64,000 nucleotides of DNA, from positions 1-64,000 of the forward strand of contig NZ_NFJP01000021.1 of assembly GCF_002159915.1 (NCBI RefSeq), written 5' to 3'. Shown here piece after piece: positions 44,881-46,621 of this stretch (within the stretch, counting starts at the first letter, position 1; every line of letters begins with the position of its first letter). The notes below the pieces were generated by a model that did no database searches, had not been told where the DNA came from, and worked only from the letters and a program-made list of their open reading frames with translations. Position numbers and translations under genes: made by a program. The DNA is from Gordonibacter sp. An230 (GTDB taxonomy: Bacteria; Actinomycetota; Coriobacteriia; Coriobacteriales; Eggerthellaceae).

Positions 44881-45023
44881 GCTGGTCGTGTCTCCTGCTT
44901 TCTTGGCTCAAGTGCTCGCTCGATGCTTATGGTAGCGCATCCGCCCCCGCAACCGTCGATCTGCGACAAGATGCCGATAAAATGAACTTGCCTCGTTATG
45001 CTTGCACCGTGCACCGTTCTCTG

Positions 45024-45061
45024 GTTCAATAAGTTCAATTTATTGAACTGAGAAATTGAAC
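45024..45061. promoter_or_regulatory. Four nested GTTCAAT/ATTGAAC half-sites before the HTH-aminotransferase gene
   Basis: GTTCAAT at 45024-45030 and 45033-45039, and ATTGAAC at 45042-45048 and 45055-45061. The inner pair makes the perfect palindrome GTTCAATTTATTGAAC (45033-45048); the outer pair brackets it. They end 12 bases before the start codon, a position suited to repression by the gene's own HTH domain. Confidence 0.7.
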
Positions 45062-45073
45062 TTTGGAGCGCTT

Positions 45074-46621
45074 ATGAGCATGCAGTATGAATCGTTCGCC
45101 GATCGCCTCGTCCGGGCTATGGCGGCCCAGGGCTTCAAGCAGGCCGATCTTATCAGGCTGGCGGGCAAACGGGGGATGAGGCTTGGAAAAAGCCAGGTCA
45201 GTCAGTATGCGAACGGTAAAACCGTTCCCCGCAGGCCCGTTGGCGAAGTGTTGGCCGCCGTATTGGACGTGCCCACCGCCTGGCTGATGGAGGGCAAGGA
45301 AATTGAACCTGCCGTTCATGAGGATGCGCCTGCGAGCGAGCCTCCCTGCATCGAAGCCGAAACCAGGGCAGCATCCGCAACCATTGAATCGAGGAGTACT
45401 CCCATGCGCGAGATCAAGAAGTCGGCAAAATTGGACAACGTGCTGTACGACGTGCGCGGCCCGGTGGTGGAGGAGGCCGAGCGCATGGAGGCGGCCGGTG
45501 CGCGCGTCCTGAAACTCAACATCGGCAACCCGGCACCGTTCGACTTCCGCGCTCCCGAGGAGATGGTGTTCGACATGAGCCGCCAACTCGTCGACTGCGA
45601 GGGCTATTCGTCGGCGAAGGGCCTGTTCTCGGCGCGCAAGGCCATCATGCAGTATGCGCAGCTCAAGCACATCCAGGGTGTCGACGTCGACGACGTGTAC
45701 ACCGGCAACGGCGTGAGCGAGCTCATCAACCTCAGCATGCTCGCGCTGCTCGACAACGGCGACGAGGTGCTTGTGCCCTCGCCGGACTACCCGCTGTGGA
45801 CGGCGTGCGTCACGCTCGCCGGCGGCACGCCCGTCCATTACGTGTGCGACGAGCAGGCGGAATGGTACCCCGACATGGACGATATCCGCAAAAAGGTGAC
45901 GAGTCGCACGAAGGCCCTCGTCATCATCAACCCGAACAACCCCACCGGCTCGCTCTACCCGCGCGAGGTGCTGCAGGAGCTCGTCGACATCGCGCGCGAG
46001 CACAACCTCATCATCTTCTCCGACGAGATCTACGACCGCATCGTCATGGACGGGCTCGAGCACGTCTCCATCGCCTCGATGGCCCCCGACGTGTTCTGCG
46101 TCACGTTCAGCGGCCTGTCGAAGTCGCATATGGTGGCCGGCTACCGCATCGGCTGGATGGTGCTGTCGGGCGACAAGGCGCGGGCGCACGACTACATCCT
46201 CGGTGTCAACATGCTGTGCAACATGCGCATGTGCTCGAACGTGCCCGCGCAGTCCATCGTGCAGACGGCGCTCGGCGGCCACCAGAGCGTGCAAGGCTAC
46301 ATCGTGCCGGGCGGTCGCGTGTACGAGCAACGCGAGTACGTGTACAACGCGCTCAACGACATCCCCGGCGTCACCGCGGTGAAGCCCAAGGCGGGCTTCT
46401 ACATCTTCCCGAAGCTCGACGTGAAGAAGTTCAACATCACGGACGACGAGAAGTTCACGCTCGACCTGCTGCACGAGAAGCGCCTGCTCGTGGTGCACGG
46501 CGGCGGCTTCAACTGGAAGAAGCCCGACCACTTCCGCGTGGTGTACCTGCCGCGCATCGAGGTGCTCGGCGAGGCGATGCGGGATCTCGGCGATTTTCTC
46601 AGCCGCTACCGCCAAGCGTAG
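45074..46621 (+). CDS. XRE-type HTH fused to an AlaA-like class I/II aminotransferase
   Basis: The protein has 515 residues. Residues ~5-75 form an XRE-like DNA-binding domain (FADRLVRAMAAQGFKQADLI, then GKSQVSQYANGKTVPRRP). A linker of about 35 residues follows. Residues ~111-515 are a complete PLP aminotransferase of the AlaA (glutamate-pyruvate) group: KLNIGNPAPFDF, NPNNPTGSLYP, SDEIYDRIV, and the PLP lysine in GLSKSHMVAGYRIGW at about residue 350. An internal ATG (45404) with GAGGAG seven bases upstream could give the 405-residue enzyme alone. Four half-sites precede the gene. A metabolite-sensing autoregulated enzyme is a natural reading, in the spirit of MocR/GabR fusions, but here the DNA-binding part is XRE and not GntR. 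Confidence 0.85.
   Translation: MSMQYESFADRLVRAMAAQGFKQADLIRLAGKRGMRLGKSQVSQYANGKTVPRRPVGEVLAAVLDVPTAWLMEGKEIEPAVHEDAPASEPPCIEAETRAASATIESRSTPMREIKKSAKLDNVLYDVRGPVVEEAERMEAAGARVLKLNIGNPAPFDFRAPEEMVFDMSRQLVDCEGYSSAKGLFSARKAIMQYAQLKHIQGVDVDDVYTGNGVSELINLSMLALLDNGDEVLVPSPDYPLWTACVTLAGGTPVHYVCDEQAEWYPDMDDIRKKVTSRTKALVIINPNNPTGSLYPREVLQELVDIAREHNLIIFSDEIYDRIVMDGLEHVSIASMAPDVFCVTFSGLSKSHMVAGYRIGWMVLSGDKARAHDYILGVNMLCNMRMCSNVPAQSIVQTALGGHQSVQGYIVPGGRVYEQREYVYNALNDIPGVTAVKPKAGFYIFPKLDVKKFNITDDEKFTLDLLHEKRLLVVHGGGFNWKKPDHFRVVYLPRIEVLGEAMRDLGDFLSRYRQA

Follow-up and report, generated by a model that had tools for sequence, protein, structure and literature searches.

Introduction

Regulators of the MocR/GabR/PdxR group combine a GntR-type DNA-binding head, a flexible linker and a fold-type I aminotransferase in one chain, and use mixed direct and inverted boxes, some of them on one side of the DNA (PMC5320631). 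The text of that paper does not contain the word "Coriobacter", and its single mention of XRE concerns PuuR. PutA and BirA, which join another enzyme and another head, also regulate genes of their own pathway at the DNA, according to the part of PMC6978683 used here. Escherichia coli AlaA (4cvq), a glutamate-pyruvate transaminase, has no DNA-binding head; the excerpted text of PMC4094517 presents it as dimeric, with a flexible N-terminal arm that acts as a plug of the active site. Phage repressors of the TP901-1 CI type have a headpiece on a flexible linker, bind as a dimer to two half-sites and end in an oligomerisation or peptidase C-terminus. The structure 6tri is TP901-1 CI (PMC11149083, in part), and the right half-site of TP901-1 OR is AGTTCACG (PMC7250872, in part).

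The gene described here lies in a 64,000-nucleotide stretch of Gordonibacter sp. An230 (the window). It differs from MocR regulators in having a Cro/C1 head instead of a GntR head, an apparently intact AlaA, a candidate internal start and one evident target, its own gene. It resembles AlaA over the full length of the enzyme and in 12 checked catalytic residues, and departs from it by its head. Compared with PutA and BirA, it adds a candidate second product from the internal start. With TP901-1-type CI it shares the headpiece sequence, the AGTTCA half-site, the flexible linker and, as predicted, a dimer on two half-sites, with a metabolic, AlaA-like enzyme in place of the phage C-terminus. MocR regulators are its nearest working analogue. 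No description of this fusion was among the matches listed in the open-licence PMC literature.

Results

Gene Structure and Domain Identity

The fusion gene (45074 to 46621, forward strand) was one open frame of 515 amino acids. It encodes a Cro/C1-type (XRE) helix-turn-helix (residues 8-73; 45095 to 45292) with five helices and no strands in the predicted model, a flexible linker (residues 74-110; 45293 to 45403; pLDDT < 50 at 81-109) and an AlaA-type transaminase (residues 111-515; 45404 to 46621), the last a candidate separate product of 405 amino acids if ATG 45404 is used. Linker length in relatives ranged from 17 to 107 amino acids by a crude count. Both neighbouring long frames were on the opposite strand, and the gene in the window is therefore probably solitary; elsewhere a crude scan placed the next long frame on the same strand at 35 of 53 loci, and operons are possible in those genomes.

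The sequence-only reading had described an XRE head, not a GntR one, on an AlaA-like enzyme, and profile searches agreed on both parts. The head alone fell below the Pfam cut-offs (HTH_31, 22.9 bits vs. 27; HTH_3, 18.1 vs. 23). A head profile from 26 orthologues matched Cro/C1-type phage repressors (E 4.9e-17; best match 3zhm). The seven Pfam families listed at E ≤ 1 included no GntR family, and the predicted model of residues 1-80 contained helices only, without the GntR-type winged helix-turn-helix of MocR; the C-terminus held a fold-type I aminotransferase domain, as in MocR. The helix-turn-helix residues were strongly conserved. Matches to BURRH entries of the PDB were set aside: they were top by whole-sequence E, but no single stretch passed alone. 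The AlphaFold model of the transaminase part was poor (pTM 0.64; rmsd 5.4 Å to 4cvq) and supports no argument, arguments from the model being limited to the head and linker regions.

The transaminase part aligned with AlaA (4cvq; E 1.5e-165) ungapped at an offset of 110. The residues matching Lys240, Tyr15, Arg18, Tyr68, Ser105, Tyr129, Asn179, Tyr210, Ser239, Arg248, Tyr333 and Arg378 of AlaA, whose catalytic roles are given in the portion of PMC4094517 used, were invariant in 43 fusions. The transaminase thus looks intact, and activity is predicted.

Distribution and History of the Fusion

Within the class, 48 of 149 genomes carried the 119-residue head-plus-linker. All 48 belong to three families of a single order, read here as Coriobacteriales; these families include Slackia, Thermophilibacter and Collinsella, and the window falls in the Slackia family. 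The enzyme (E ≤ 1e-60) was found in 54 of the 149, 49 of them in the order and five in other families. The head was present in 48 of those 49 and in none of the five; the sole exception in the order, G146, had neither head nor array.

When the genomes of 84,980 species were scanned with the head profile, 473 relatives were obtained, and the best 80 were retained. All 80 had the transaminase signature in the same frame (L151 was cut short and two frames ran off contigs), and they included records named Blautia, Roseburia, Fusicatenibacter, Eisenbergiella and Mediterraneibacter. Among 200 Lachnospiraceae genomes the enzyme (E ≤ 1e-100) was present in 54, with the head in some and without it in others. 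Among 398 Bacillota genomes the enzyme was present in 30, and the match extended into the head only for the seed genome, a short match not proving that the head is missing. The head was not found in ten stretches of other Actinomycetota (L065-L074, selected from 58 genomes with a match because their open frames were long or their matches strong), nor in L059-L064. The idea of a split gene in G064 was rejected: that row contains a stretch of N, and the codon count excludes it.

A tree built from 143 transaminase domains placed every fused copy, together with four unfused ones, in a single clade (SH-aLRT 96). Its neighbours were unfused Lachnospiraceae, with 70-85 on the branches below, and the Coriobacteriales copies were a clade (88) nested within it. 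Four changes were needed for the fused or unfused state. The tree was quick and had no bootstrap, and the program flagged long branches in the unfused part; beforehand, 38 rows had been removed from 181 as near-identical, and three of 184 loci had no usable sequence. L110, labelled Clostridiales, was placed with Bacillota in the tree, where it did not join the clade of Coriobacteriales; the promoter, internal-start, codon and heptamer-shuffle counts include it under Coriobacteriales. A single origin in Bacillota, transfer to Coriobacteriales and a few head losses fit this quick tree. Where the head was lost (G146, G1100, G926 and G939), the array was gone too; a sign test of this joint loss had only three independent pairs and was underpowered.

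The Heptamer Array in the Window

Two GTTCAAT heptamers (45024 to 45030 and 45033 to 45039, forward strand) were followed by two ATTGAAC heptamers (45042 to 45048 and 45055 to 45061, reverse strand), the third being inverted to the second across a 2-bp spacer. These are the four half-sites first noted from the sequence, the last ending 12 bases before ATG 45074. The fourth adjoins the Shine-Dalgarno GGAG of the full-length start (45065 to 45068, forward strand; pairing energy -5.6 on a 17-base stretch). A possible but weak -10 box, TATGCT (44997 to 45002, forward strand), was picked by eye; the -10 search across regions chose another hexamer for the window's copy. The spacings within the array (9, 9 and 13) fit helical phasing only loosely.

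An argument from an excess of heptamers in the whole window was rejected (five in total vs. 2.69 expected; 15 of 100 shuffles reached five); the unusual feature is four heptamers within 38 bp. In the 3.88-Mb genome, the pattern GTTCAATN{0,30}ATTGAAC occurred only at the fusion gene, and a reversed control pattern gave 0.

Two further sites were seen in the window. A putative degenerate half-site, AATGAAC (44981 to 44987, reverse strand), has one mismatch and is the same AAATGAACTT variant as the repeats before the genes L164-L166 described below. A perfect heptamer (45302 to 45308, reverse strand) lies within the coding region of the linker, and linker half-sites were also present in L010, L011, L012, L034, L055, L082, L134 and L149 (rows L009-L012 being closely related). 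In 81 linkers counted as Coriobacteriales there were 11 heptamers (shuffle mean 0.69); they are a possible intragenic operator.

Association of the Array with the Head

The array had been proposed as something to look for near orthologues, and all 48 same-order fusion genomes had at least one heptamer upstream of the gene, 47 of the 48 having at least two. Within about 200 bp upstream of the 48 fusion genes there were 173 exact heptamers, and there were 0 upstream of six unfused relatives. Over 47 fusion genes, including one misanchored row (L058), 166 heptamers occurred in 11,045 upstream bp vs. 11 in 72,957 bp of gene body. In the stretch read for the best 80 of the 473 head relatives, some of which are in the same genomes as the 48, an upstream heptamer was present in 79 and at least two in 77; L094 had none upstream, its sole heptamer lying in the first codons. 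As the head-only scan was blind to upstream DNA, the array was no selection criterion for most loci.

Deduplication reduced 128 upstream regions to 104. The 83 counted as Coriobacteriales held 288 heptamers (dinucleotide-shuffle mean 3.5), with at least two in 80, and the 21 Bacillota regions held 59 (shuffle mean 1.1), with at least two in all 21. In the Lachnospiraceae sample (53 of 56 copies; one unfused row had no usable window and one was short), 33 heptamers preceded 18 fused genes and two preceded 35 unfused genes. At least one was present in 14 of the 18 fused genes and at least two in 10, four having no exact heptamer; none of the 35 unfused genes had two.

Three fused Lachnospiraceae genes with fewer than two exact heptamers (L164-L166) had AAATGAACTT repeats and altered heads, and L173, without an exact heptamer, had GGTAAACTT repeats and an altered head. 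Judged by eye, these cases are suggestive of head and operator changing together. Upstream of L160 the array was absent, and an inverted repeat of about 18 bp (ATGTACTCTCGGAGTCTC and its complement, by eye) flanks the region, perhaps a small mobile element.

The 48 fusion genomes contained 57 inverted pairs, 47 at the gene (37 genomes) and 10 elsewhere (hand count); 101 genomes of the class without the fusion contained seven. In 22 Bacillota genomes there were 20 direct pairs (13 genomes), 19 of them at the gene, and the direct-pair pattern was absent from nine of the 22, even at the gene. On these counts the predicted regulator has one evident target, its own gene. Another palindrome, GTTCAATCTTGTCG..CGACAAGATTGAAC or near to it, recurs away from the fusion gene in three genomes of the Collinsella family (G120, with four occurrences, G021 and G024) and is perhaps the operator of another regulator.

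Site Geometry and Promoter Overlap

In 40 distinct arrangements, 101 adjacent spacings clustered at multiples of about 10.5-11 bp (R 0.47-0.48), and none of 5000 jittered sets was as strong. Neighbours of opposite orientation were strongly phased, those of the same orientation weakly (R 0.27; n = 36). Most half-sites thus share one helix face, with their orientations mixed, an arrangement to be expected of two heads carried by flexible linkers. MocR operators likewise combine direct and inverted boxes, some of them on the same DNA side, a working resemblance and not membership.

Candidate -10 boxes, chosen by an extended -10 pattern, were obtained in 88 of the 104 regions. In 16 of the 21 Bacillota regions ATTGAAC started exactly 24 bases before the -10 box, which puts TTGAAC in the place of the -35 element, at a spacer of 17 bp. 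In other regions, chiefly those of Coriobacteriales, GTTCAAT started 17-19 bases before the first base of the -10 box at 31 sites, and ATTGAAC started 12-15 bases after it at 48. Binding at the core promoter would block RNA polymerase, and autorepression by the fusion is therefore likely.

The Internal Start

An internal ribosome site that could yield the enzyme alone had been read from the window, and codon conservation now argues for it: AGGAG (45392 to 45396, forward strand), encoded by Arg-Ser codons, lies seven bases before ATG 45404, which would open the 405-residue product. In a first set of 47 fusion genes (G064 omitted), Arg stood at codon -4 in 37 and was AGG in 37/37, vs. 54 of the remaining 1,496 Arg codons. 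After deduplication, in the rows counted as Coriobacteriales, a set that overlaps the first, this Arg was AGG in 57/57 vs. 78 of 2,525 others (3%), and the following Ser was AGC or AGT in 53/53 vs. 796 of 2,654 other Ser codons. The rows are related, so that these counts are not independent events; L110 has no Arg at -4, and its grouping leaves 57/57 unaffected.

The GGAG was at -11 in 57 of 80 genes (Coriobacteriales count) vs. -12 in 15 of 21 Bacillota genes, where it is in a different reading frame and often encoded by Gly-Gly (12/21). Pairing energy was -5 or better at the internal site in 94 of 101 genes vs. 289 of 1,398 other in-frame Met codons, and seven of the 101 genes with a junction Met had a weak internal Shine-Dalgarno. 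Judged by pairing energy alone, the site was the best in-frame Met of its transaminase in 21 of the 101 genes only; its strength is positional conservation. The constancy of AGG in both sets argues that the internal start matters to selection, and it is nearly certain that the putative internal ribosome site is under selection. Across the variable linker the reading frame is kept open, which means that the long product, too, must be of importance. Three of the 104 deduplicated genes (L082, L088 and L094) have lost the junction Met and have no short form from that start. The short form of CheA and the Inh protein of Tn5 are analogues of the headless product.

Kinship with Phage Switches

The head aligned with 3zhm over the same letters as with 6tri, and 5a7l aligned alike. 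The basal fused head L243 and the phiNJ2 repressor, from a Streptococcus phage, shared 59% identity. The putative half-site of the fusion is AGTTCAAT (motif aaATTGAACTt vs. AGTTCACG of the phage) and contains, as judged by sequence, the AGTTCA of TP901-1-type CI sites.

Nine clear phage switch regions, eight of them of Streptococcus phages, were hand-picked from 30 listed of 107 and 109 matching records. Seven of the nine had at least two TTGAAC/GTTCAA hexamers (L255 had one and L259 none), and in six of the nine TTGAAC was the -35 box of the repressor's own promoter, 17 bp from TATAAT, the same layout as in Bacillota fusion genes. Three records were set aside: L252 (MT839198.1) and L253 (MT839381.1), deposited as unverified bacteriophage, are fragments of the bacterial fusion gene, and L254, from a phage collection, is ambiguous in identity. 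With these included, nine of 12 records had at least two hexamers. No divergent antirepressor gene was seen beside the window's copy, unlike in a TP901-1-type switch. The simplest account would be that promoter, operators and headpiece were captured as one piece, with convergence as the alternative.

Discussion

The fusion behind its heptamer array is nearly certain. Autoregulation by a non-GntR fusion and an internal start, both first suspected from the window's DNA, are strongly supported by the comparison. The kinship with phage repressors, the helical phasing, the promoter overlap in other species and the presence in two phyla go beyond that first reading. The gene is probably an autorepressing, dual-product alanine transaminase with a captured phage headpiece. 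Its product, a glutamate-pyruvate (alanine) transaminase, would regulate how much of itself is made. Full-length subunits would dimerise via the transaminase part, and flexible linkers would let two phage-type headpieces grip AGTTCAAT half-sites of both orientations, which lie mostly on one helix face and surround the core promoter and the ribosome site. The bound fusion would block transcription of its own gene. The junction ribosome site would also yield the bare enzyme, which would do most of the catalysis and would pair with full-length subunits, giving one-headed dimers and weaker repression. Headpiece and promoter-operator layout would have been captured from a TP901-1-like phage repressor gene. 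We infer that substrate or cofactor may gate the repressor through the head-bearing N-terminal arm.

The sequence-only reading had pictured an enzyme that senses its own PLP substrate. In one rival account the fusion would be a GabR-like sensor whose DNA binding is altered by PLP, alanine, glutamate or pyruvate bound at the active site; the long protein would then play the main part and the short one a minor part. This is a serious possibility, though somewhat short of an even one. The head is joined to an AlaA-type arm, a flexible plug of the active site in the text of PMC4094517 used here, which offers a possible route for gating, and MocR regulators use boxes of similar arrangement (PMC5320631, in part). 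The unvarying AGG in both overlapping sets counts against it, as the internal start then matters to selection. Alternatively, the fusion may repress in proportion to its own amount and so steady the enzyme level with no ligand at all, a reading that we find tenable and rather doubtful: one evident target and operators over the promoter require no ligand, whereas such homeostasis does not require a domain with an active site as dimeriser.

A bolder extension of the autorepressing, dual-product transaminase appears unlikely as a whole. In it, alaA would have captured the promoter, operators and headpiece of a CI gene in one piece and so turned the lysogeny switch of a phage into one for metabolism. 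The bare enzyme would there be the antirepressor, its one-headed dimers taking the role of Mor in the phage; substrate occupancy would gate the head via the active-site plug, and alanine metabolism would become switch-like or bistable; the self-contained cassette would afterwards have crossed from Lachnospiraceae-like Bacillota to Coriobacteriales.

It is improbable that the fusion activates its own gene from upstream half-sites: some do lie well upstream of the -10 box, but many genes have sites over the core promoter or past it, as far downstream as the ribosome site. Little probability attaches to the internal ribosome site being a mere leftover of a once separate enzyme gene. The start of most unfused genes read is the matching Met, as a leftover would have it, but the rare codon is conserved in Coriobacteriales and the site is kept in a different frame in Bacillota. 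That another XRE protein, such as a resident phage repressor, binds the array and the fused head is a relic is very improbable, for although related phage switches use the same half-site, the array tracks the fused head and is absent or nearly so in unfused relatives, the helix-turn-helix residues are strongly conserved, and in a few genes variant half-sites suggestively accompany variant heads.

If this reading is true, transcription factors of the aminotransferase type would have been invented a second time, independently, here as a two-product gene of common gut bacteria whose catalytic site is intact and which has one evident target. The autorepressing transaminase bears on the old question of whether the occupancy of an active enzyme can directly set its own transcription, which becomes testable, in vitro and with a reporter strain, because enzyme, regulator, operator and output lie in about 1.7 kb. 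It also suggests how central metabolism can domesticate a phage switch.
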